Below, in pieces: positions 7,600-29,468 of a stretch of DNA of 64,000 nt. The stretch comes from Actinomadura sp. DC4 (GTDB lineage Bacteria > Actinomycetota > Actinomycetes > Streptosporangiales > Streptosporangiaceae). The notes under the pieces were generated by a model, which saw only the letters and a list, made by a program, of their open reading frames with translations, was not told the origin of the DNA and did not search any database. The stretch's first letter is position 1. Each line of letters begins with the position of its first letter. Made by a program: the position numbers and the translations under genes. The stretch is from NCBI RefSeq assembly GCF_030406325.1, contig NZ_JAUEQY010000012.1, positions 62,001 to 126,000 on the forward strand, given 5' to 3'.

Positions 7600-7809
7600 C
7601 GATCCATAGCTCCCGGGGGACGATCGTACGCCGCGCCCGGCCGGTGGCCTCGCATCAGCGGGTGTCCGCGGCGACGGGCGCTCGGCCTAACCTTAGGGCC
7701 GAACGGCTGAGTCCAGGTTGCTCCGAGGTCGTCGATGGCCGGTCCGGACGGCGTCCACGCTAAGCCCTCGGCGCCGACGCCACACGAGAACCCGCGAACT
7801 CCCGGTCGA

Positions 7810-8226
7810 TCACTCGAGCAGATCGCCGATGGCCGCGCGCACCCGGGCGCGCTCGTCCTCGGTCAGCCCGCCCCAGAACGCGCGCTCGGACTCGTACCAG
7901 ATCCCGGTGATCGGCTCGCGCAGCGCGCGGCCGGCGTCGGTCAGCCAGACGCGTACGAGCCGCGCGTCGGCGGCGTCGCGCTCCCGGTGGACGAGGCCGG
8001 CCCGCTCCAGGCCGCTCACGACCTTGGTCACCGCGGGCGCCGAGACGCCCGTACGGGCCGCGAGGTCGGCGGAGGTGACGCCGTCCTCGCGCCAGAGCTG
8101 GGCGAGGTAGTACTCCTGACCCACGTGCAGGCCGTGCCGGTCCAGACCGTCGGCGACGAGGGCCCTGTAACGCCCGAGCGAGCGGATCAAGTGGTACGAC
8201 GGGCTGTCGAGCAGCGAACGTTCCAC
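7810..8226 (-). CDS. MarR family transcriptional regulator
   Basis: The 138-aa protein has the winged-helix MarR layout: a helical N-terminus, the DNA-binding block TSADLAARTGVSAPAVTKVVSGLERAGLVHRERDAADARLVRVWLT, and a C-terminal dimer helix. It starts at GTG 8226. It is divergent from the large AfsR-like regulator (gap 264 bp). Its target is unknown; it could act on either side of the shared region. No strongly symmetric site was seen there. Confidence 0.9.
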   Translation of the reverse strand: MERSLLDSPSYHLIRSLGRYRALVADGLDRHGLHVGQEYYLAQLWREDGVTSADLAARTGVSAPAVTKVVSGLERAGLVHRERDAADARLVRVWLTDAGRALREPITGIWYESERAFWGGLTEDERARVRAAIGDLLE

Positions 8227-8490
8227 CTGCTCAGAGTAGCCATCGTCCTCCGTGGCACCCGTACGGCGCGGCCGGTGGATATCCGCGTGACGCCGGCCCG
8301 TGCCTCATGCAGGATGAGTCCGGCCGCGCTCGTACGGGCGCGGAGGGGCGGCGGTGGAAGATCGGCCGCGACGTTCTGGCGATCACCCGGGACATGGGGC
8401 GCATCGAGATATATCGTGGTTTGTCGTCAGGAACGGCAGACTTCCCGGGGCGGCGATTCCCGGGCGGGCACACGCAAGGGAGGATGGCTC

Positions 8491-11400
8491 GTGCGCATCG
8501 GGCTGCTGGGACCTCTCGAGGTGGCCGACGACGCCGGGCGGGCGGTCGAGGTCGGCGGCGCCCGCCTGCGCGCGCTGCTCATCCTGCTGACCCTCGACGC
8601 CGGCCGCGTCGTCACCGCCGAACGGCTCGTCGACGGGGTCTGGGGCGACGACCCGCCCTCCGGGGCGCCGAACGCCCTGCAATCCCTGGTCTCCCGCCTC
8701 CGGCGCGCGCTGCCGGGGCTCGTGATCGAGTCGCATCCGGCCGGATACCGGCTGGTTCTGGCCGAGTCCGGAGACACCGTCGACGTCGCCGAGTTCGACC
8801 GCCTCGCCGCCCGCGGGCAGGCGCTGCTGGCCGACGATCCCGCGCGGGCCGCCGACGAGTTCGCCGCGGCGCTGCGGCTGTGGCGCGGCTCGGCGCTCAC
8901 CGACGTCGCCGAGGCCGACTTCGCCCGCGGTCACGTCTCCCGCCTCACCGAACGTCGCCTGGCCGTGATCGAGGACCACATCGAGGCGCGGCTGACGCTC
9001 GGCCGCGCGGACGTCGCCGAGCTGCAGGCGCTCGTCGCGGCGCACCCGCTGCGCGAGCGCCTGCGCGGGCAGTACATGCGCGGCCTGTGCGCCGCCGGGC
9101 GGCAGGCCGACGCGCTCGCCACCTACGAGGACGCCCGCCGTACGCTCGCCGACGAGCTCGGCGTCGACCCGTCGCCGGAGCTGCGCGAGGCGCACCTGTC
9201 CGTCCTGCGCGGCGCGCCGTCCAGAGCGCGGCCGGCCGCGCGCACCAACCTGCGCGCCCGGCTCACGAGCTTCATCGGCCGCGAGGAGGAGATCGACCGG
9301 GTCGCCAAGCTCCTGGACCAGAACCGCCTCGTCACGCTCACCGGACCGGGCGGCGCCGGCAAGACCCGGCTCGCCGTCGAGTCCGCCGACCGGCTCGCCG
9401 AGCGCATGCCCGGCGGCGTCTGGCTCGCCGAGCTGGCCCCGCTCGGCGACCCGGCGGAGGTGCCGCAGGCCCTGCTCAGCGCGCTCGGCCTGCGCGAGCG
9501 GGCGCTGATGGGCAACATCCGGGGTACGGCGCCGGCCGTCACCGACCCGGTCGGGCGTCTCCTGGCCGCGCTGGCCGGCGAGCGTCTCCTGATCGTGCTG
9601 GACAACTGCGAGCACCTGATCGACGCGTGCGCCCGCATCGCCGACCGCATCCTGGCCCACTGTCCGGGCGTGCGCGTCCTCGCCACGAGCCGGGAGGCGC
9701 TCGGCATCACGGGGGAGACCCTCTGTCCCGTGCCGCCGCTGGGCTTTCCCGCCGCCGGCACGGTCGAGGACGTGCTCGACTATCCGGCCGTACGCCTGCT
9801 GGCCGAGCGCGCCGCCGCCGTACGGCCCGGCTTCACCGTCGACACCGACCTCGACGCGGTGCTGGCCATCTGCCGCCGCCTCGACGGCATGCCCCTGGCG
9901 ATCGAGCTGGCCGCCGCCCGCCTGCGAACGATGACCGCCACGCAGATCGCCGGCCGCCTGGACGACCGGTTCCGGCTGCTCACCGGCGGCAGCCGTACGG
10001 CGCTGCCGCGCCACCAGACGCTGCGCGCGGTGGTCGACTGGAGCTGGGACCTCCTCGACGAGCCCGAACACGTACTGCTGCGTCGCATGTCGGTCTTCTC
10101 CGGCGGGGCCACGCTCGAGAGCATCGAGGAGGTCTGCGGCTGCGACGTCTTCGACGCCCTCATCGGCCTGGTGGAAAAGTCACTGGTCATCGTGGACGGG
10201 GCCGGCCGCTACCGGATGCTGGAGACCATCCGCGCCTACAGCGCCGACCGCCTCTCCCGCGCCGGAGAGGCCAGGAGCATCCGGCGCGCACACGCCCATC
10301 ACTTCCTCGAACTCGCCGAGACCGCCGAGCCGATGCTGCGCACGCGCGAGCAGCTGCGGTGGATCCACCGGCTGGCCACCGAGTACGACAACCTGCACTC
10401 GGCGCTGCGCTGGGCCATCGACGTCCGCGACGCGGCGCTCGCGGTCCGTTACGTCGCCGCGCTCGGCTGGTACTGGTTCCTGCGCGGCCGGCGGATCGAG
10501 GGGGAGCAGCTCGCCGCCGAGGCGGTGGCCGTGCCCGGCGAGGGGCCGGCCCAGGCGCGGGCGCTCGCCTGCATGTACTGGCTGCTCGGCTCCATCGGCG
10601 GCGACGAGAACCCGGTCGAACGGGGGGCGCTGCGCACTCGCCTCTCGACGGCCCTGGAGACCATCGACGGGCTCGACCGCGACGCGCTGCACCCCGTCCT
10701 CCGCATCGCGCCGATGGGCCTGCGCATCTTCGACGGCCAGCTCGACGAGGCGCTCACCGAGCTGGAGATGCTGCGCTCGGCCCGCGACCCCTGGCTGCGC
10801 GCGACCGGCGACACTCTGCGCGGGCACGCCGTGATCAACATCGGCCTGGTGAAGGACGTCGAGAAGATCTTCGGCGCCGCGCTGGCGGCGTTCCAGGAGC
10901 TCGGCGAGCGCTGGGGACTGTCGATGACGCTGATCGGGATCGCCGAGATCGCGCTCTGGAAGGGCGAGCCGGAGAAGGCCAAGTCCTGCATCGAGGAGGC
11001 CCTCGGCTACTCCGTCGAGTTCGGCAGCGAGGACGATTCGAGCTTCCTGCGCATCCGCCTCGCCAACGCCTACACGGCGGCCGGTGACGAGGCGCGGGCG
11101 CGCGTCGAGCTGGAGAACGCCATACGCGGGGCCCGGCGGCGCAGCGCGCCCGAGGACCTCGCCTTCGTCTGCTTCACCCTCGGTGAGTTCGCCCGCCGCG
11201 ACGGTGACCTCGCGGGCGCTCGCGGGCATCTCGAAGAGGCCGTCGGGTATCTCGGCGAGCGGGGCGGCCCGCCGCAGTTCGCCGCCATGGTCCACTCACA
11301 GCTCGGGCTCGTCCACACGCTGGAGGGCGACACGGCCACCGCGCTCATCCGCCACACCGAGGCCCTCGCGCTGGCGACGACCGCGCACGACGCGCCGGCC

Positions 11401-11643
11401 ATCGCGCAGACCCTCATCGGCTTCGCCGACGTGGCCCTGTGCGCGGAAGAGCCGGAGCGAGCGGCGACGCTCCTCGGCGCGGCCGTCGCCGTACGCGGCA
11501 TGGAGGACCGGTCGCTGGGCGACCCGCCGCGCATCGAGCGGGCGGCACGTGGGGAGCTGGGCGACGTGCGGTACGACGAGGCGTACTCCCAGGGGCTCAT
11601 GATGGACACCGGGAGCGCCACGGCGTACGTCGGGATGGACTGA
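8491..11643 (+). CDS. AfsR/SARP-type regulator with NB-ARC and TPR domains
   Basis: The 1050-aa protein starts at GTG 8491 after GGGAGG. Residues 1-95 form the OmpR-like DNA-binding domain (IGLLGPLEVADDAG, ALQSLVSRLRRALPG). Residues 95-250 are the BTAD helical domain ending VDPSPELREAH. An NB-ARC ATPase follows with Walker A GPGGAGKTRL, Walker B LLIVLDNCEHL and a GMPLAIELAAARL motif. The C-terminal half is TPR-like helical repeats. Such STAND regulators activate secondary metabolism or export genes. The convergent DrrAB-type exporter is the nearest plausible partner, but no full biosynthetic cluster is here. Confidence 0.92.
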   Translation: MRIGLLGPLEVADDAGRAVEVGGARLRALLILLTLDAGRVVTAERLVDGVWGDDPPSGAPNALQSLVSRLRRALPGLVIESHPAGYRLVLAESGDTVDVAEFDRLAARGQALLADDPARAADEFAAALRLWRGSALTDVAEADFARGHVSRLTERRLAVIEDHIEARLTLGRADVAELQALVAAHPLRERLRGQYMRGLCAAGRQADALATYEDARRTLADELGVDPSPELREAHLSVLRGAPSRARPAARTNLRARLTSFIGREEEIDRVAKLLDQNRLVTLTGPGGAGKTRLAVESADRLAERMPGGVWLAELAPLGDPAEVPQALLSALGLRERALMGNIRGTAPAVTDPVGRLLAALAGERLLIVLDNCEHLIDACARIADRILAHCPGVRVLATSREALGITGETLCPVPPLGFPAAGTVEDVLDYPAVRLLAERAAAVRPGFTVDTDLDAVLAICRRLDGMPLAIELAAARLRTMTATQIAGRLDDRFRLLTGGSRTALPRHQTLRAVVDWSWDLLDEPEHVLLRRMSVFSGGATLESIEEVCGCDVFDALIGLVEKSLVIVDGAGRYRMLETIRAYSADRLSRAGEARSIRRAHAHHFLELAETAEPMLRTREQLRWIHRLATEYDNLHSALRWAIDVRDAALAVRYVAALGWYWFLRGRRIEGEQLAAEAVAVPGEGPAQARALACMYWLLGSIGGDENPVERGALRTRLSTALETIDGLDRDALHPVLRIAPMGLRIFDGQLDEALTELEMLRSARDPWLRATGDTLRGHAVINIGLVKDVEKIFGAALAAFQELGERWGLSMTLIGIAEIALWKGEPEKAKSCIEEALGYSVEFGSEDDSSFLRIRLANAYTAAGDEARARVELENAIRGARRRSAPEDLAFVCFTLGEFARRDGDLAGARGHLEEAVGYLGERGGPPQFAAMVHSQLGLVHTLEGDTATALIRHTEALALATTAHDAPAIAQTLIGFADVALCAEEPERAATLLGAAVAVRGMEDRSLGDPPRIERAARGELGDVRYDEAYSQGLMMDTGSATAYVGMD

Positions 11644-20423: not shown

Positions 20424-20594
20424 TCAGGCGCAGCGTGGAACGTCGATGCCGTGGCTCGCGGCCGTCCGCCGAAGATCGTCGATCTCGGCTCGCTGAGCCT
20501 CGACCAGCAGATCGTCGCCGGTGTCGTGGGCCACCCGCAGCGACTCGTACGCGTCGGTCAGACGCTGGTGGATCGTCGTCGTCAACTCGCCCAC
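20424..20594 (-). CDS. Small conserved hypothetical protein, 56 aa
   Basis: The protein starts at GTG 20594 after GGGAG. It is helical and acidic (VGELTTTIHQRLTDAY..., then VEAQRAEIDDLRRTAASHGI). It has no membrane segment. Short proteins of this type occur widely in actinomycetes without assigned function. It is divergent from the two-component pair starting at 20755. Confidence 0.65.
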   Translation of the reverse strand: MGELTTTIHQRLTDAYESLRVAHDTGDDLLVEAQRAEIDDLRRTAASHGIDVPRCA

Positions 20595-20754
20595 AACGGT
20601 CTCCCTTCCAGAAGAGGTGAAGTGCGGTCTACCCAAGGCATGGTCGCCGCTAAACCTCCGAATACCCTGGGCGTGCTTATCGGACACTTACGCACGGTGT
20701 GACATAACTGATACCGCCGGTCCAGCGCGCGGCTTTCCAGGGGGTGGAGACAGA

Positions 20755-21408
20755 GTGAGGGTTCTGGTCGTCGAGGACGAACGCGTGCTCGCGGACACCA
20801 TCGCCACCGGTTTGCGACGGGAGGCGATGGCCGTCGACGTCGCGTACGACGGCGCCGCCGCGCTGGAGCGGACCAGCGTCAACGACTACGACGTGGTCGT
20901 GCTCGACCGTGACCTGCCGCGGGTGCACGGGGACGAGGTGTGCCGGCGGCTCGTCGCCGACGGCGTCGCCGCCCGCGTCCTCATGCTCACCGCGGCGGGG
21001 GAGCTGGACGACAAGGTGGAGGGCCTGTCGATCGGGGCCGACGACTACCTCGCGAAGCCGTTCGCGTTCGCCGAGCTGATCGCCCGCATCCGCGCCCTCG
21101 GCCGGCGTTCCGCGCCGCCGCTGCCGCCCGTGCTCGAACGCGCGGGCGTCCGCCTCGATCCGGCGCGCCGCGCCGTCACCCGGAGCGGCCGCCCGGTGGA
21201 GCTGACGCCCAAGGAGTTCGCGGTGCTGGAGGTGCTGATGCGGGGGCAGGGCACCGTCGTCAGCGCCGAGCACCTGCTGGAGAAGGCCTGGGACGAGAAC
21301 ATCGACCCCTTCACCAACGTGGTGCGGGTGACGATGATGACACTTCGCAAGAAACTCGGTGAGCCGCAGGTCATCGAGACCGTGCCCGGCGCGGGGTACC
21401 GCCTTTGA
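20755..21408 (+). CDS. OmpR-family response regulator
   Basis: The 217-aa protein has a receiver domain (VLVVEDERVLADT, phospho-Asp in VVVLDRDLPRV, the Thr in MLTAAG, Lys in YLAKPF). A winged-helix DNA-binding domain follows (VELTPKEFAVLEVLMRGQGTVVSAEHLLEKAWD, ending VPGAGYRL). The GTG start follows GGTGGAGA. Its last four bases overlap the kinase start. The inducing signal is unknown. Confidence 0.93.
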   Translation: MRVLVVEDERVLADTIATGLRREAMAVDVAYDGAAALERTSVNDYDVVVLDRDLPRVHGDEVCRRLVADGVAARVLMLTAAGELDDKVEGLSIGADDYLAKPFAFAELIARIRALGRRSAPPLPPVLERAGVRLDPARRAVTRSGRPVELTPKEFAVLEVLMRGQGTVVSAEHLLEKAWDENIDPFTNVVRVTMMTLRKKLGEPQVIETVPGAGYRL

Positions 21409-22535
21409 GCCCCTCGCCAGGCGCCGTGACCCGCCGCATGACCGTACGCCTGCGGCTGACCCTGCTGTACGGCGGCCTGTTCTTCGCCGCGGGGTTCCTC
21501 CTGCTCACGGTCGCGTACGTCCTGGTGACCAACATCCTGGAGGGCCTGCCGATCGAGGTCCGCACCAACGACCCGTTCGGCATCTCCCAGCAGGAACAGC
21601 AGGCGATCCGGCAGAGCTTCATCGACAACGCCCAGCACCGGCTGATCACGCAGTCGGCCTTCGCGCTGGTCGGCGTGGGACTGATCGCGCTCGCGCTCGG
21701 CTGGTTCGTGGCCGACCGGGCGCTCGCGCCGCTGCAGAAGGTCACGGCGACGGCCCGCAAGCTGTCGGAGAGCACGCTGCACGAGCGCATCGCGCTGCAG
21801 GGGCCCGAGGACGAGATCAAGGAGCTGGCCGACACCTTCGACGCGATGCTGGAGCGCCTCAACGAGGCCTTCGACGCGCAGCGGAGGTTCGTCGGCAACG
21901 CCTCCCACGAGCTGCGCACGCCGCTGGCCATCAACCGCACCCTGCTCGAGGTCGCGCTCACCGACCCCGAGGTGTCAGAGGACCTGCGCACGGTCGGGCG
22001 CACGCTCCTCGCCAACAACGCCCGGCACGAGCGGCTCATCGAGGGGCTGCTCCTGCTGGCCCGCAGCGAACGCGAGCTGACCACCCGCACCGCCGTCGAC
22101 CTGAGCGAGGTCGCCACGATCGTGCTCAAGACGGCCGTACGCGAGGACCGGCCGGACATCGAGATCACCACCGAGCTCACGTCCGGCCCCACGACCGGGG
22201 ACCCGGTCCTGCTGGAGCACCTGGTCTCCAACCTCATCGACAACGCGGTCCGGCACAACGTCGACGACGGCACGGTCGTCGTCCGTACCGGGGTCCTGGA
22301 CGGATGGGCCACCTGCCAGGTGGAGAACACCGGCCCGGTGGTGCCCGCCTATGAGGTGCAGAACCTCTTCGAGCCGTTCCGCCGGCTCAACACCGACCGG
22401 ATCGAGTCGGCCAAGGGCGCCGGGCTCGGCCTGTCGATCGTGCGCTCGGTGGCCGGCGTGCACGGTGGTTCGGTGGTCGCGACGCCGCGCGAGGGCGGCG
22501 GCCTGATCGTCACGGTCCGCCTGCCGAAGGGCTGA
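21405..22535 (+). CDS. Membrane sensor histidine kinase
   Basis: The 376-aa protein has two membrane helices (about residues 17-40 and 82-103) around a 40-residue extracellular loop. A HAMP domain, a HisKA domain (RRFVGNASHELRTPLAIN) and an ATPase domain (N-box NLIDNAVRHN, G-box GAGLGLSIVRSVAGVHGG) follow. It is translationally coupled to the response regulator. The start codon is TTG at 21405 if the overlap is used; GTG 21426 is an alternative. The short loop suggests it senses the membrane or a small ligand. Confidence 0.92.
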   Translation: MSPSPGAVTRRMTVRLRLTLLYGGLFFAAGFLLLTVAYVLVTNILEGLPIEVRTNDPFGISQQEQQAIRQSFIDNAQHRLITQSAFALVGVGLIALALGWFVADRALAPLQKVTATARKLSESTLHERIALQGPEDEIKELADTFDAMLERLNEAFDAQRRFVGNASHELRTPLAINRTLLEVALTDPEVSEDLRTVGRTLLANNARHERLIEGLLLLARSERELTTRTAVDLSEVATIVLKTAVREDRPDIEITTELTSGPTTGDPVLLEHLVSNLIDNAVRHNVDDGTVVVRTGVLDGWATCQVENTGPVVPAYEVQNLFEPFRRLNTDRIESAKGAGLGLSIVRSVAGVHGGSVVATPREGGGLIVTVRLPKG

Positions 22536-22600: not shown

Positions 22601-23575
22601 TCAGCCGGTGTACTGGGCGAAGATCTTCGAGAACTCGTACGGCTGCTGCGGGATGTTCGTGCACTGGTAGAGCGCGCCGTTGCAGGCGTTGCGGTCGCGC
22701 GTCGTCTCCCAGAAGCCCAGCGAGCCCACGTGGTGCTGGCGCGCGAAGGACACGAGCTGCCGCGCGTCGTTCTGGTCATAGACGCTGCCGTCGTCGTTCT
22801 TCCCGAGCATCGGCGTGACGCCGACCATCGACCAGATCTGCGCGTCGGACCGGCCGGTGAGGATCGACGCCAGCTGGTCGTGCGTGGCCTGGGCGGCCTT
22901 CGTCGCCGCGTCGCCGTCGTCCGTACCGCTGCGGTAGTAGTCCATGGCCATGACGTTGACCGAGTCGGGACCGGCCCCGGCGTTCTTGGCCGACCGTACG
23001 ATGTTCAGCCCGTCGCTGGTCAGGCCCTCCGGCAGCACCGGCAGGGTGAGACTGATCTTGAGGTTGGGGTGGGTCTGCTTGAGCCGCGCCAGCGCCTGCG
23101 AGCGCCGGCCGATCGAGGCGGGGTCGGCGGTCGCGGCGCCCTCGATGTCGAAGTCGGCGTAGGTCGCGCCGTAGGCGTCCACGACCGCGGCGTACTCGGT
23201 GTAGAGGGTGTTCGCGTCACCGCAGGCCTGGGCGAGCTCGATGCCGGACGCGCCGCCGAAGGAGATCCTGACGTCGCCGCCGGCCGTCCGCAGCTTGTCG
23301 ATCTCGTCCTTCTGCCATGCCGTACGCGGGTCGTAGGCGTTGAACCAGCTGGCCTTGCAACCCGCGCCGGTGACGAACCCGAGGGTGAACCCCTTGATCC
23401 CGGAGGCCTGCGACATCGCGCTGAGCGAGGGCGTGGGCCAGGCGCCCATGTCCACGTACGGCGAGACGGCGGGCCAGTTGCCCGTGGCGGCGGTGGCGGG
23501 CGCGGCGACGGCGGGACCGATCAGCAGACCGGCCGGCACGGCCATCACGGCGAGCTTCTTGAACAGGCGTCTCAC
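22601..23575 (-). CDS. Secreted GH18 chitinase
   Basis: The 324-aa protein has a signal peptide (MRRLFKKLAVMAVPAGLLIGPAVAAPATAA, cleavage near residue 30). A GH18 barrel follows, with catalytic motif YADFDIEG in which E145 should be the acid. Other elements fit the family: ISFGGASG and VMAMDYY. It has no chitin-binding module. It should hydrolyse chitin or related GlcNAc polymers outside the cell. Its upstream DNA holds a promoter and two inverted repeats. Confidence 0.92.
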   Translation of the reverse strand: MRRLFKKLAVMAVPAGLLIGPAVAAPATAATGNWPAVSPYVDMGAWPTPSLSAMSQASGIKGFTLGFVTGAGCKASWFNAYDPRTAWQKDEIDKLRTAGGDVRISFGGASGIELAQACGDANTLYTEYAAVVDAYGATYADFDIEGAATADPASIGRRSQALARLKQTHPNLKISLTLPVLPEGLTSDGLNIVRSAKNAGAGPDSVNVMAMDYYRSGTDDGDAATKAAQATHDQLASILTGRSDAQIWSMVGVTPMLGKNDDGSVYDQNDARQLVSFARQHHVGSLGFWETTRDRNACNGALYQCTNIPQQPYEFSKIFAQYTG

Positions 23576-23681: not shown

Positions 23682-26438
23682 TCACTTGCGCGCCGTCGTC
23701 GTCAGGACCGGATAGCCCAGATAGTCCATGCCGATGTTGACGAACGACTTGGTGTTCCCCACCCGGTACTGCACGTTCGAGTACAGCGGGATGAGCGCCA
23801 TGTCATCCAGCGCGATCTTCTCGGCGCTCTGCAGCTCCTTGGTCCGCTGTCCCGCGTCGGCGGTCGAGCGGGCGGCCTTCATCGCGGCGTCGAAGGCGGG
23901 GCTGCTGTAGCGCGCGTAGTTGCTCCCGCCCACCGACCCGTCGTCCTTGCGCGCGATCGAGGAGCTGGACAGCAGCGGGCCGAGGAAGCTCTCGGCCGTC
24001 GGATAGTCCGCGACCCAGCCGAACGGGTACAGGCCCTCGGCGTCCTTGCCCGCCTCGTCCTGGTAGAACTTCGTGAGGTCGATCTTGCGGATGTCGACCT
24101 TCCAGCCGAGTTCGGTCTGAAGCTGCTGCTGCGCCGCGGTGACCAGCGCGGAGTACGAGCTCGTCGAGCCGACGGTCAGCGTCACCTTCGACCCCGGGCC
24201 GAGGCCCGCGAGCTGGGCCATCGACTTGGCCTTCACCGAGTCGTGGACGCACGCGGTGCAGCCGTTGGTCAGCCCGCCGGGGACGCCGGGCGGCACCAGG
24301 GAGCTGGCCGGCGTGTAGATCCCGCCGTAGGCGCTCTGGATCAGCGCCTTGCGGTCCAGCGCGTACGACACCGCCAGCCGCGCCTCCTTGGACTTCATCG
24401 GGCCCTTGTCGTTGATCGGCAGCAGGAACGTCATGCCGCCGATGGCCCCCTTCAGCAGCTCGCCGTCCGAGGAGTGGCGGGAGACGGCGGTCGGCACGGA
24501 GGCGGCGTTCAGCTCCGCCCAGTCGTACTGGCCCGCGTCGAACCCGGTCACCGCGCTGGCCAGGTCGCCGGCGAAGGTGACGTCGACCTCGTCCAGCTTG
24601 GGCTTGGTGAGGGCGGAGGAGTCGTTGCGAACCAGCGTGAGCCTGCTGTTCGCGGTGTAACTGCCGACCTTGAACGGCCCGTTGCCGATCGGCTGCTTGT
24701 TGTAGGTGGCGTCGGACGCGTCGCCGGCCACCGAGGGGACGGGGACGAACACCGGCGCGGACACGCGTTTGCCGAAGTCGCAGTCGGCCTCGGTGAGCGC
24801 CACCTGCAGGATGTCCGGGCCGCTCGTCGTGAGGCCCGACATCGTCCGCGAACCGCCCGAGTACACGTCGTCGTAGCCCTTGATGTCATCCATCAGGTAG
24901 CCCTCGCCACCGGTCTTGTTGCCCGCGGTGCGGTTCCAGCTGCGTACGAAGGCGGCGGCGTCGACGGGCTCGCCGTTGCTGAACTTCGTGCCCGGCCGCA
25001 GGGTGAACTTCCAGTTCGTACAGCCGCTGTCGGAGCTCATCTGGGTGGCCAGGGCGTTGACGATGGTGCCGTCCGGCTTGACCTGGCTCAGCCCGGTGTA
25101 GAGGTTCTCCACGACGAAGAAGTCGGCGGTGGTGATGGCGTTCGACGGGTCGATGGAGCTCGGCGCGGACATCGCCATGCGGAAGGTCCCGCCGGTCTTG
25201 CCGGCGACGGGTACGGGCTTGGCCTTCTTGTGGTTGCCGGCCAGCTTCACGCCGGCGTACGTCCCGGCCGAGACGAGTAGCACCATCGCGGCCGCGGCGG
25301 CGGCCACGACGCCGGGCCGGAGGCCGCGCCGCGGGGTCTTGTAGCCGTCTCCCGTGTAGCCCCGCGTCATCATCCCCGCCCCGGGCGGCGGCGTGTCGGC
25401 GCCCGGGGGATGGTGACCGGACGGCGGGGTGTCCGGCCCGGGGTAGTACATGCCGGGCGGAGGCGTGTCGTGACCGGTCGGGTAGGCCGCCCACGGCCGG
25501 GAGTCGCCGGCCCCGTACGGGCCGCTCGGCGGCGTCCACTGCGGAGGCGGGGTGTTCTGCGCGGCGACCTGGGCGCCCTTGTTCAGCACCTCGGTGGCCG
25601 CGGCGGGCCGCGCGCCAGGGAGCGAGACTCCGTCGTTGCTGAGCAGCCGGAGGAGGATCTGCTGCGCGGTCGGCCGGAGCCGTGCGTCCTTGGCCAGGCA
25701 CGCCGTGACGATCTCCCGCAGCGGGCCCATGAGCATCCCGAGGGACGGCTCCTGGGACAGGATGCGGTTCATCACCGCCGGGATCGAGTCCTGGCCGAAC
25801 GGCGGGCTGCCGGTCGCGGCGTACACGATCGTGCAGGCCCAGGCGAAGACGTCGGTGGGCGGACCGGCGGTGTTCCCGGAGATCTGCTCCGGCGACATGT
25901 ACGACGGCGTGCCCACGGTCGTGCTCGTCAGCGTCCCGCCGGCGTCGAGGGCACGCGCGATGCCGAAGTCGATCACGCGCGGCCCGTCGGAGGCGAGCAG
26001 GACGTTCGTCGGCTTGAAGTCGCGGTGGACGATGCCGGCCTCGTGGATGGCCGCGAGGGCGGTCGCCGTGCCGATGGCCAGGCGCTGCAGGACCCCGCCC
26101 GTACGGGGGCCCTCCGCGTCGACGACCTGGCGCAGCGACGGGCCCTCGATGAACTCGCTCACGAGGTAGGGCGTGTCGCCCTCCACGTCGGCGTCGAGGA
26201 TCTGGGCCGTACAGAACGGCGCGACGCGTTTGGCGCTGGCGAGCTCTCCCGCGAACCTCGCCCGTGCCTTGGTGTCGCCGCTGAACTGCGCGTGCAGCAG
26301 CTTGACGGCGACCCTTTCGCCTTCCGGGTCCTCGCCGAGGTAGACGACACCCTGCCCGCCCTCGCCGAGACGACCGGTCAGGCGGTACGAGCCCAGTTGC
26401 TCAGGATCGTTCGCCCGGAGAGGAGCGGTCTCCGGCAT
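23682..26438 (-). CDS. Ser/Thr protein kinase fused to an oligopeptide-binding (SBP family 5) domain
   Basis: The 918-aa protein has an N-terminal Hanks-type kinase (residues 17-270): GEGGQGVVYLG loop, catalytic K46 in VAVKLL, HRDFKPTNV with D140, DFG at 157-159 and TPSYMSPEQ. A Pro-rich cytosolic linker (about 295-370) and one membrane helix (about 376-398) follow. The extracellular part, residues 415-918, is a complete family-5 solute-binding protein (GGTFRMAMSAPSSIDPSNA, WKFTLRPGTKFSNGEPVDA, IGNGPFKV, FGWVADYPTAESFLGPLL). The layout suggests a receptor kinase sensing a peptide. It is cotranscribed with the kinase upstream (19-bp gap). Confidence 0.93.
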   Translation of the reverse strand: MPETAPLRANDPEQLGSYRLTGRLGEGGQGVVYLGEDPEGERVAVKLLHAQFSGDTKARARFAGELASAKRVAPFCTAQILDADVEGDTPYLVSEFIEGPSLRQVVDAEGPRTGGVLQRLAIGTATALAAIHEAGIVHRDFKPTNVLLASDGPRVIDFGIARALDAGGTLTSTTVGTPSYMSPEQISGNTAGPPTDVFAWACTIVYAATGSPPFGQDSIPAVMNRILSQEPSLGMLMGPLREIVTACLAKDARLRPTAQQILLRLLSNDGVSLPGARPAAATEVLNKGAQVAAQNTPPPQWTPPSGPYGAGDSRPWAAYPTGHDTPPPGMYYPGPDTPPSGHHPPGADTPPPGAGMMTRGYTGDGYKTPRRGLRPGVVAAAAAAMVLLVSAGTYAGVKLAGNHKKAKPVPVAGKTGGTFRMAMSAPSSIDPSNAITTADFFVVENLYTGLSQVKPDGTIVNALATQMSSDSGCTNWKFTLRPGTKFSNGEPVDAAAFVRSWNRTAGNKTGGEGYLMDDIKGYDDVYSGGSRTMSGLTTSGPDILQVALTEADCDFGKRVSAPVFVPVPSVAGDASDATYNKQPIGNGPFKVGSYTANSRLTLVRNDSSALTKPKLDEVDVTFAGDLASAVTGFDAGQYDWAELNAASVPTAVSRHSSDGELLKGAIGGMTFLLPINDKGPMKSKEARLAVSYALDRKALIQSAYGGIYTPASSLVPPGVPGGLTNGCTACVHDSVKAKSMAQLAGLGPGSKVTLTVGSTSSYSALVTAAQQQLQTELGWKVDIRKIDLTKFYQDEAGKDAEGLYPFGWVADYPTAESFLGPLLSSSSIARKDDGSVGGSNYARYSSPAFDAAMKAARSTADAGQRTKELQSAEKIALDDMALIPLYSNVQYRVGNTKSFVNIGMDYLGYPVLTTTARK

Positions 26439-26456: not shown

Positions 26457-28022
26457 TCACTGCTTGTTGAGGGTGCCGTTCGCGTACGAGCTTCCGTACG
26501 AGGTCTTGCTCATCGCCCAGGTCATGGAGGAGCCGCTCAGCGTCATCGTGATGTACGAGGACGTCGGGCAGGTGCCGCCGCTCTGATTGAACAGGGTCTG
26601 GCTGAACACCACCCGTGAGTCGTTGGAGCTGTCCGGCTCCATGAACACCGAGCCGGTGCAGTTGCCGTAGTCGGCGTGGCCGACCCGCGACCCGTTGTTG
26701 AGCGTGATGGTGATGTCGAACGGCCGGGTGTCGGCCTTCGCGTCGGTGTTGTGCCCCGAGCCCTTCCAGGTGCCGACGTAGTCGTCCGGCACGCCGTAGT
26801 GCGAGGGGGTGTAGGTCGGCAGGTTGTTCAGGTTGTGGTGGGCGTTCTGCATGAAGCCCGCGGCCAGCGCGATCGGCAGGCCCACGACCAGCAGCAGGAA
26901 GACCACGCAGCCGATGCCGACGAAGATCGGCGCGTTGCTGGACTTGCGCCGTGGCGGCGGAGGCGTGAACCGCGGCGGCATGGGCGCCGTGTGCTGATGT
27001 TGCTGCCAGGGCGGCGGCGTCTGCGGGCCCGGCATCATCATCGGGTTCGGCGTCGCCTGGCCGTGCATCATCGGCGTCGGCGTGTTGACGTACGGCGCGG
27101 GCGGCGGCGTGTTGACGATCGGCGGCGGCGGAGGCATCTCGGCCGCGATCCGGGTGCCCTTGCCGAGCAGGTCGTCCCGGTCGGCCGAGGGGCTCGGCGT
27201 CGCGCCGACCTGGCCGAGCAGGCGCAGCAGGAGCTGGTGGGCGGCCGGCCGGCGGCGCGGGTCCTTGTCCAGCGCCATGCCGACGAGCTCACGCATGGTG
27301 CCCGTGAGACGGGAGAGGTCCGGCTGCTCGTTGAGGATCCGGTTGATGATCACCGGCAGCGTCTCGGCCTCGAACGGGGAGTGGCCCGTCGCCGCGAAGA
27401 CCATCGTCGCGCCCCAGGCGAAGATGTCCACCGCGGCCGTCAGGGGCTCACCGGTGAGCTGCTCGGGGGCGAGGTAGCCGGGAGTGCCGACGACCATGCC
27501 GGTGGCGGTGACGGAGCTCTGCTGGGAGTCGACCGAGCGGGCGATGCCGAAGTCGACGACCCGCGGGCCGTCGGAGGCCAGCAGCACGTTGTTGGGTTTG
27601 AAGTCGCGGTGGACGATGCCGGCCTCGTGGATGGCGGCTAGCGCCGTCGCGGTACCGATGGCCAGGCGCTCGAGCGACGCGCCCTGGAAGGCACCCTCCT
27701 GGATGACGACGTCGTAGAGCGGCGGTCCGTCGATGAACTCGCTGATGATGTAAGGAGGACGACCGTGAAGGTCATAATCCAGGACCTGCGCGGTACAGAA
27801 AGGTGACACCTTCTGTGCCGCTTCGACCTCGCGCGCGAACCTCGTACGGGCAGACGAGTCGGAGTTCATCTGCGCATGCAGAAGTTTGATCGCGACGTGC
27901 TGACCCGATGGCGACCGGCCGAGATAGACGGCCCCCTGGCCGCCTTCACCCAGCTTCCCGACGACCTCGTACTGCCCCAGCGAGGCCGGATCGCCCGGCT
28001 CCAGGGGAGCGGCATCCGGCAT
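26457..28022 (-). CDS. Membrane Ser/Thr protein kinase with short extracellular domain
   Basis: The 521-aa protein has a kinase domain very like its neighbour's (GEGGQGAVYLG, VAIKLLHAQM, HRDFKPNNVLLASDGPRVVDFGIAR, GTPGYLAPEQ). A Pro/Met-rich linker and one membrane helix (IFVGIGCVVFLLLVVGLPIALAAG, about residues 362-385) follow. The extracellular domain has about 135 residues (YVGTWKGSG start, two Cys) and may form a beta-barrel. The two kinases share near-identical segments and look like tandem duplicates with different sensors. This gene is the first of the pair. Confidence 0.92.
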   Translation of the reverse strand: MPDAAPLEPGDPASLGQYEVVGKLGEGGQGAVYLGRSPSGQHVAIKLLHAQMNSDSSARTRFAREVEAAQKVSPFCTAQVLDYDLHGRPPYIISEFIDGPPLYDVVIQEGAFQGASLERLAIGTATALAAIHEAGIVHRDFKPNNVLLASDGPRVVDFGIARSVDSQQSSVTATGMVVGTPGYLAPEQLTGEPLTAAVDIFAWGATMVFAATGHSPFEAETLPVIINRILNEQPDLSRLTGTMRELVGMALDKDPRRRPAAHQLLLRLLGQVGATPSPSADRDDLLGKGTRIAAEMPPPPPIVNTPPPAPYVNTPTPMMHGQATPNPMMMPGPQTPPPWQQHQHTAPMPPRFTPPPPRRKSSNAPIFVGIGCVVFLLLVVGLPIALAAGFMQNAHHNLNNLPTYTPSHYGVPDDYVGTWKGSGHNTDAKADTRPFDITITLNNGSRVGHADYGNCTGSVFMEPDSSNDSRVVFSQTLFNQSGGTCPTSSYITMTLSGSSMTWAMSKTSYGSSYANGTLNKQ

Positions 28023-28353: not shown

Positions 28354-28650
28354 ATGGCCACCGACTACGACAGTCCACGAAAGACAGACGACGACCTCAG
28401 TGAGGACAGCCTGCAGGAGCTGCAGGCGCGCCGTGCCGACAAGAGCACCGGCGTCATAGATGAGGATCTCGACGCCGGTGAGGTCACCGAGCTGCCCGGG
28501 GCGGACCTTTCGAACGAGGAGCTGAGCCTCCGCGTTCTGCCCCGGCAGGCCGATGAGTTCACGTGCGCGCGCTGCTTCCTCGTGCATCACCGCAGCCAAC
28601 TGGCCGAAGAGAGGAACGGCCAGCTGATCTGCCGCGAGTGCGCGGCCTGA
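28354..28650 (+). CDS. DUF4193 family protein
   Basis: The 98-aa protein begins MATDYDSPRKTDDDLSEDSLQELQARR, typical of the actinobacterial DUF4193 family. It ends with a zinc-ribbon-like pair of Cys motifs (CARC...CREC). It is small, acidic and soluble. The function is unknown. Its gene is followed after 14 bp by the 267-aa gene. Confidence 0.92.
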   Translation: MATDYDSPRKTDDDLSEDSLQELQARRADKSTGVIDEDLDAGEVTELPGADLSNEELSLRVLPRQADEFTCARCFLVHHRSQLAEERNGQLICRECAA

Positions 28651-28664
28651 GGCCGGGAGCGCTC

Positions 28665-29468
28665 GTGCCGGAAAACGAGGTCGAACGCTGGGAAGACGGC
28701 GAGGACCGGCTCGGTCATGAGATGGCGGAGCTGGTCGGCCGGCTGTCCGTCGAGGACGACATGGACCGCGAGACCCGCGGCCGCGTGCTCGGCCGTATCG
28801 CGCGCCTGATGGCCGCGAGCGCGCGCCGAGCCGGGGCCGCGGGCGTCGGACGGGGACGCTGGCTCACCGACACCGTCATGGAGATCGCACCGCACGTCCC
28901 GGTCCGCGACCTGGAGACGCTGCGCGCCCACCACGACGGCGAGACGGGCGAGGCCCTGGCCGATCTGCTCGTACGGGCCGCGCAGCGCGCCACGACCGGA
29001 GTCGGCGCGGCGGGCGGGGCACTCGCCGCGATCGAGTTCGCGGCGCCGCCGCTCCTGCTCAGCGCGCCGGCGCAGATCGTCGCGGAGACCGTGGTCGTCG
29101 CGACCATCGAGGTCAAACTGATCGCCGAACTGCACGAGGTGTACGGGGTGAAGGTCCCGGGCACCGGCACGGCCCGCGGCGCGATCTTCCTGCAGTCATG
29201 GGCCCAGCAGCGCGGCTTCGACCCGATGGCGCCGGGCAGCGTGACGGCGGCCCTGGGCGTGGCGGCCAAGACGGGCCTGCGTAAACGCCTGCTTCGGACG
29301 TTCGGCCGCCACTTCACCACGCTGGGGCCGTTCCTGACCGGCGCCGTGGCGGGCGGCGCGCTGAACCGCGCGGCGACCAAGCGCTTGGCCGACAAGATCC
29401 GTGATGACCTGCGTGGATATCACATCGAGACGGGCCGGCAGCGTCCTTCGGTCGAAGGCGGCCATTAG
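28665..29468 (+). CDS. Conserved hypothetical membrane-associated protein
   Basis: The 267-aa protein starts at GTG 28665 after CGGGAG. An acidic N-terminus and basic helix (residues 40-60) precede a hydrophobic centre (AAIEFAAPPLLLSAPAQIVAETVVVATIEVKL, residues 120-155). Another hydrophobic stretch (FLTGAVAGGALN) lies near the C-terminus. The pattern resembles EcsC-like proteins, but I am not sure of that. It is downstream of DUF4193 and probably cotranscribed. No function is assigned. Confidence 0.75.
   Translation: MPENEVERWEDGEDRLGHEMAELVGRLSVEDDMDRETRGRVLGRIARLMAASARRAGAAGVGRGRWLTDTVMEIAPHVPVRDLETLRAHHDGETGEALADLLVRAAQRATTGVGAAGGALAAIEFAAPPLLLSAPAQIVAETVVVATIEVKLIAELHEVYGVKVPGTGTARGAIFLQSWAQQRGFDPMAPGSVTAALGVAAKTGLRKRLLRTFGRHFTTLGPFLTGAVAGGALNRAATKRLADKIRDDLRGYHIETGRQRPSVEGGH

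Follow-up and report, generated by a model that had tools for sequence, protein, structure and literature searches.

A receptor-type Ser/Thr kinase fused to a family-5 solute-binding domain, a candidate peptide sensor of Actinoallomurus and other genera

Gene order and domain layout

The window, i.e. the whole 64,000-nucleotide stretch of DNA analysed from the soil bacterium Actinomadura sp. DC4, contains a single ATG-started open reading frame, here called FUS, that encodes a Ser/Thr kinase and a solute-binding protein (SBP) in one chain (Table 1). An SD-like GGGAGG precedes the ATG. Pfam finds a Pkinase match in the N-terminal part (E 1.7e-39) and an SBP_bac_5 match at aa 459-827 that covers profile positions 2-365 of 368 (E 2.8e-62), i.e. 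a complete domain. The hydropathy profile has one peak only, which lies between these two domains. The kinase has kept its motifs (GEGGQG at 25, K46, HRDFKPTN at 138, DFG at 157), and K46, H138-R139-D140 and D157-F158-G159 are invariant in 17/17 aligned fusions. By its catalytic Lys, HRD and DFG, combined with a single membrane helix and an outer domain, FUS is a Hanks-type receptor kinase in which the helix would place the SBP domain outside the cell. A preliminary description of this DNA had proposed that a kinase, a linker, one helix and a complete family-5 SBP lie in one 918-aa chain, and the reading frame, Pfam and hydropathy bear this out.

Table 1. Genes, domains and residues discussed in the text, numbered along the window
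Feature	Position	Strand	Basis
FUS, kinase-SBP fusion gene, 918 aa	23682..26438	-	ORF, Pfam, conservation in relatives
FUS Ser/Thr kinase domain, aa 18-262; K46, HRD (D140), DFG (D157) intact	25653..26387	-	Pfam, motif alignment
FUS Pro-rich cytoplasmic linker, aa 263-372	25323..25652	-	alignment; between kinase and membrane helix
FUS sole membrane helix, ~aa 373-398	25245..25322	-	hydropathy peak 1.97 at aa 377-395
FUS extracellular family-5 solute-binding domain, aa 415-918	23685..25196	-	Pfam, AlphaFold model, structure matches
W808-x-x-D811 of FUS, counterpart of M. tuberculosis DppA W442/D445	24006..24017	-	alignments
C473 of FUS, first in fusion-specific cysteine pair	25020..25022	-	alignment
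C553 of FUS, second in fusion-specific cysteine pair	24780..24782	-	alignment
KIN, upstream kinase gene, 521 aa, 18 bases ahead of FUS	26457..28022	-	ORF, Pfam, tree
Outer domain of KIN, predicted as a beta barrel of 8 strands, outside any Pfam family	26460..26801	-	Pfam, structure model, structure search
Two-component genes (response regulator, histidine kinase) conserved next to FUS, in convergent orientation	20521..22535	+	Pfam, synteny

The upstream kinase KIN likely shares an operon with FUS and would be co-expressed with it. The two kinases are 58% identical, and their homology ends in the linker, at about aa 302 of FUS. Beyond this point KIN carries an ectodomain whose predicted barrel (pLDDT 90.5) is unrelated to the SBP, as had been anticipated from the sequence, where the similar kinase next door was said to have a different extracellular domain. 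A search of solved structures returned no match to this ectodomain at E <= 0.001; its weak structural matches are small beta barrels, e.g. Cap15 and nitrobindin (best E 3e-3). Two of its cysteines are invariant in 16 sequences.

In Actinoallomurus and in other genera the syntenic locus runs from a class-I tRNA synthetase (Pfam tRNA-synt_1, which we read as valS) through a 301-aa gene, KIN, FUS and the histidine kinase with its response regulator to a ferrochelatase and a transglycosylase. No ABC importer components were found beside FUS among the genes called at 14.1-33.3 kb, which were all scanned with Pfam except a 113-aa ORF. The 301-aa gene (window 28563-29468, +) has no Pfam family and is kept at the locus even where the kinase is missing. 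A GH18-like gene (22601-23575, -; 22.2 bits at a Pfam cut-off of 29.6) lies between FUS and the histidine kinase and occurs at 4/8 of the genus loci. Further away, the window encodes a regulator of 1302 aa with BTAD, AAA and TPR domains (7735-11643, +).

Distribution and ancestry of the fusion

FUS was found full length and in one frame in 8/8 Actinoallomurus genomes, the open frames measuring 904-951 aa; named records of this genus are Actinoallomurus iriomotensis, A. purpureus, A. spadix and two MAGs. Of 100 sampled genomes of the family, 9 carry the fusion, in 10 copies, each within an open frame of 865 aa or longer. We built an SBP profile from 15 fusions and ran it on 297 genomes of the order, counting places at or above 526 bits. 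This SBP type occurs at 59 places in 58/297 genomes, and for 57 of the 59 the surrounding open frame is 865 aa or longer, the other two (G658, G543) being cut by contig ends; the kinase domain itself was observed in 24 of the fused places and the remaining ones are called fused by frame length. In the same 297 genomes the matches below the fusions reach at most 308 bits, mostly in frames of 500-620 aa. A search of 394 genomes of the class (at least 500 bits) returned, besides these fusions, only two free proteins (G121, G413), and a search of 296 genomes of the phylum (E 1e-120) just the window's own copy and the G121 protein. The same fusion is thus present in other genomes, where the preliminary description had proposed to look for it, both throughout the genus and in further genera. 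A sequencing or annotation artefact joining two genes, the frame error considered in that description, has next to no probability: we found no point in its favour, and single-frame, full-length copies occur in 8/8 genus genomes and in several further genera.

Two further kinds of fusion were considered and rejected. Among the lower-scoring family-5 matches with long frames, eight were examined (L232-L238 and the G067 match, L166), with a few further ones outside that set, and none of the eight has a kinase; they are free SBPs. In detail, none of the seven places L232-L238 matches the FUS kinase at E 1e-15, a Pfam scan of L233-L235 and L166 gave the SBP alone with no kinase, and L233 has a lipobox-like signal within its frame. 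A double-kinase KIN-FUS fusion was suggested by open frames of ~1456-1560 aa (G552, G605, G596, G575), which proved to be GC-rich upstream extensions: the first ~607 residues of the long G552 frame match neither the KIN nor the FUS kinase, and in G605, G596 and G575 the two genes occupy distinct frames that overlap.

In the kinase tree 20 fusions group as a single clade (support 96/83), separate from a KIN clade (100/100). The first SBP tree, with 48 rows, recovered a single origin of the fused domains in 24% of bootstrap trees. After six rows were dropped (two secondary fusions, the second SBP of G121, two duplicates and one long branch), the 20 fusions fell on one side of a branch with support 100/99, a value that depends on the dropped rows and comes from a tree whose root was not inferred. 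The two trees agree on a single, old fusion lineage. Among 14 further loci around the conserved histidine kinase, taken from genomes that lack the fusion, 7 have one kinase and 7 have none. Kinases thus occur here in a single branch of the family, only part of which has FUS.

The two free proteins of the class search belong to another family of bacteria. They are 546-550 aa long, have a lipobox-like start and head Opp-type operons in which two permease-like and two ATPase-like genes follow, named from their sequences and not via Pfam. Their identity to the window SBP is 40-42%; the latter is 42.3% identical to the free G121 protein and 41.5% to the SBP of the G044 fusion. The FUS SBP would derive from a transporter SBP. 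A donor in the window's own genome was considered and rejected, the best free SBP there being merely 30% identical. At L219 and L220 two Opp-like clusters stand in tandem, each headed by a family-5 SBP, and the first of these SBPs is the nearest free relative of the fused domain. The fused SBP domains diverge faster than their kinases (71.9% versus 88.9% identity for the same genome pair), and judging by this rate their ligands may differ between genera.

Fold and cleft of the extracellular domain

The AlphaFold model of the FUS SBP domain (pLDDT 91.2, pTM 0.89) is a complete two-lobe fold, an open oligopeptide-binding-protein fold of the kind for which a prediction of the binding cleft had been proposed. 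Solved structures align with it at a Z of up to 40.1 across 476 residues. The best of them belong to family 5 and are mainly those of peptide binders: YliB, M. tuberculosis DppA (8wd9, Z 38.4), MppA (4toz, Z 37.8), OppA and DppE; for B. subtilis OppA (8are) the Foldseek E is 5.7e-45. The model is nearer to apo or open forms (TMq 0.89 for 8wd9, 0.87 for 8azb, 0.86 for 4toz chain A) than to most peptide-bound OppA and DppA structures (TMq about 0.74-0.78).

D811 of FUS aligns with position 421 of 517 in the M. tuberculosis DppA chain. Since this chain ends at residue 541, the counterpart of D811 is DppA D445. W442 and D445 of DppA are described as conserved residues of the peptide pocket (PMC6751184). 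For OppA, a conserved Asp (419 in S. enterica) is reported to bond the amine of residue 1 of the peptide (PMC5736914). By way of DppA, D811 would correspond to OppA Asp 419. W808 and D811 are each retained in 19/20 fusions, with Thr in place of D811 in G601. Loss of the ligand-site residues, which would speak against binding, is therefore not what is seen in FUS.

From sequence and model, peptide sensing is the best reading of FUS, likely rather than proven. Against it stands the wider ligand range of family-5 SBPs, which takes in nickel complexes, haem, sialic acid and other solutes. The receptor could instead sense a sugar, a metal chelate, haem or some other ligand known for family 5, an alternative that we consider improbable. 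It draws on the fold shared with nickel, sialic-acid and haem binders, whose chains follow closely in Z (37.1 for 5za4, 36.9 for NikZ 4oet), and on the absence of the Asp in one fusion. The conservation of W808 and D811, OppA, DppA and MppA as top sequence matches, and the Opp-type operons in which the closest free relatives sit all argue for a peptide. By the same evidence, of the "peptide or sugar" proposed in the preliminary description, the peptide is the likelier.

C473 and C553 are present in 20/20 fusions, 0/26 free SBPs and 0/2 secondary fusions, and they likely form a fusion-specific disulphide. The pair would also fit an SBP that has become a docking or scaffold domain with no small ligand, serving a cell-wall polymer or a partner protein, for instance KIN or the histidine kinase. 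The faster divergence of the SBP and the position of KIN upstream of FUS in syntenic loci would fit this as well. The domain has, however, kept its cleft residues and its open two-lobe fold, and we hold such a role to be quite improbable.

Candidate peptide sensing and known sensor kinases

Overall, we suggest with moderate confidence that FUS is a one-component membrane receptor kinase, in which an OppA/DppA-type outer domain senses a peptide and switches the kinase. The SBP domain would be tethered by its N terminus to the single membrane helix and no longer serve an importer. A peptide (a nutrient, a cell-wall fragment or a secreted signal) would enter the open cleft, its amino end being held at D811, and the two lobes would presumably close on it. 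Closure could alter the packing or dimerisation of the receptor, a change passed via a linker that looks disordered and one helix, and the kinase inside might thereby be turned on or off.

The FUS SBP has the fold of OppA, DppA and MppA, aligns with such proteins over its full length and carries the Trp-Asp pair known from their peptide pocket. Unlike them, it rides on a kinase, lacks a lipobox start and adjacent importer genes, and has the extra C473 and C553. One could still picture a tethered transport protein, with FUS feeding an importer encoded elsewhere and the kinase reporting on or regulating uptake; the closest free relatives look like importer SBPs, and the genome has free family-5 relatives elsewhere. 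With importer genes absent beside FUS in the window, and a one-helix tether that would limit docking, we regard this as very unlikely.

Kinase-SBP fusions have already been published as a type. A 2005 paper describes an S. coelicolor kinase (gi|21223285) with a Glu/Gln SBP domain in a single chain (PMC1262709), and a 2018 paper names MSMEG_1200 and "260 SBP kinases" in InterPro (PMC6069109). According to these papers, MSMEG_1200/StpK7 and the S. coelicolor protein resemble FUS in having a Ser/Thr kinase and an SBP in one polypeptide; the S. coelicolor SBP is described as a Glu/Gln domain, whereas that of FUS is family-5. Against the NCBIfam model for StpK7/MSMEG_1200 (NF052427, cut-off 900) FUS scores 104.4 bits, through its kinase part only, and the 601 positions of this model appear too few for a kinase plus a family-5 domain of ~500 aa. 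We rate FUS as a family-5, OppA-type variant of the published type. No description of a family-5, OppA-type kinase fusion was found in literature searches, whose limited coverage of subscription papers makes this weak evidence of absence, and such fusions may already be catalogued among the 260 SBP kinases of InterPro.

In the GlnH-GlnX-PknG system of Mycobacterium and Corynebacterium (PMC6069109), a Ser/Thr kinase is controlled by an extracellular SBP, as is presumed for FUS. It differs in consisting of three separate proteins, with amino-acid ligands and a kinase without a membrane helix, where FUS is one chain with an oligopeptide-type SBP. The FUS kinase region, and only this part, matches the NCBIfam models of PASTA kinases (PknB/Stk1; NF033483, 175.5 bits, cut-off 450) and of AfsK (NF053615, 203.1 bits, cut-off 1300). 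Unlike these kinases, FUS lacks a PASTA domain (no match in Pfam) or a PQQ domain.

Finding the stimuli of most bacterial Ser/Thr kinases has been called an outstanding question in the abstract of PMC6069109. The stimulus and the coupling of FUS are directly testable, since its type of sensor domain has a well-studied closing motion and ligands that often co-purify. In addition, synteny and the trees of the FUS family show how an importer's binding protein can become a receptor. A more specific form of the peptide-receptor reading makes FUS a dedicated receptor for a particular secreted or cell-wall peptide, groups it with KIN and the histidine kinase in one sensing station, and lets the fast-changing SBP set each species' own peptide; we see this as possible but unlikely. 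If it holds, an importer's peptide-binding protein, once tethered to a kinase, was made into a one-component peptide receptor.

The preliminary description had also suggested swapping of sensors between kinases. Over evolutionary time such exchange is real, as two observations show. First, the nearest kinase outside the FUS clade (L052, 66.5% identity) has several apparent membrane helices in place of the SBP. Second, two genus genomes, from two species, have another kinase + SBP_bac_5 fusion at a different locus (G002, L157:8644-11559, +; G001, L158:9306-12149, -), in which the kinase falls outside the FUS clade and the SBP is just 28% identical; by these comparisons it is probably an independent capture. 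The idea holds only over such long times, as KIN and FUS belong to separate old clades with stable ectodomains. Ten other kinases of this genome were scanned with Pfam. Among their ectodomains are PD40, PQQ (two) and WD40 propellers, and in six of the kinases this part matches no Pfam family.
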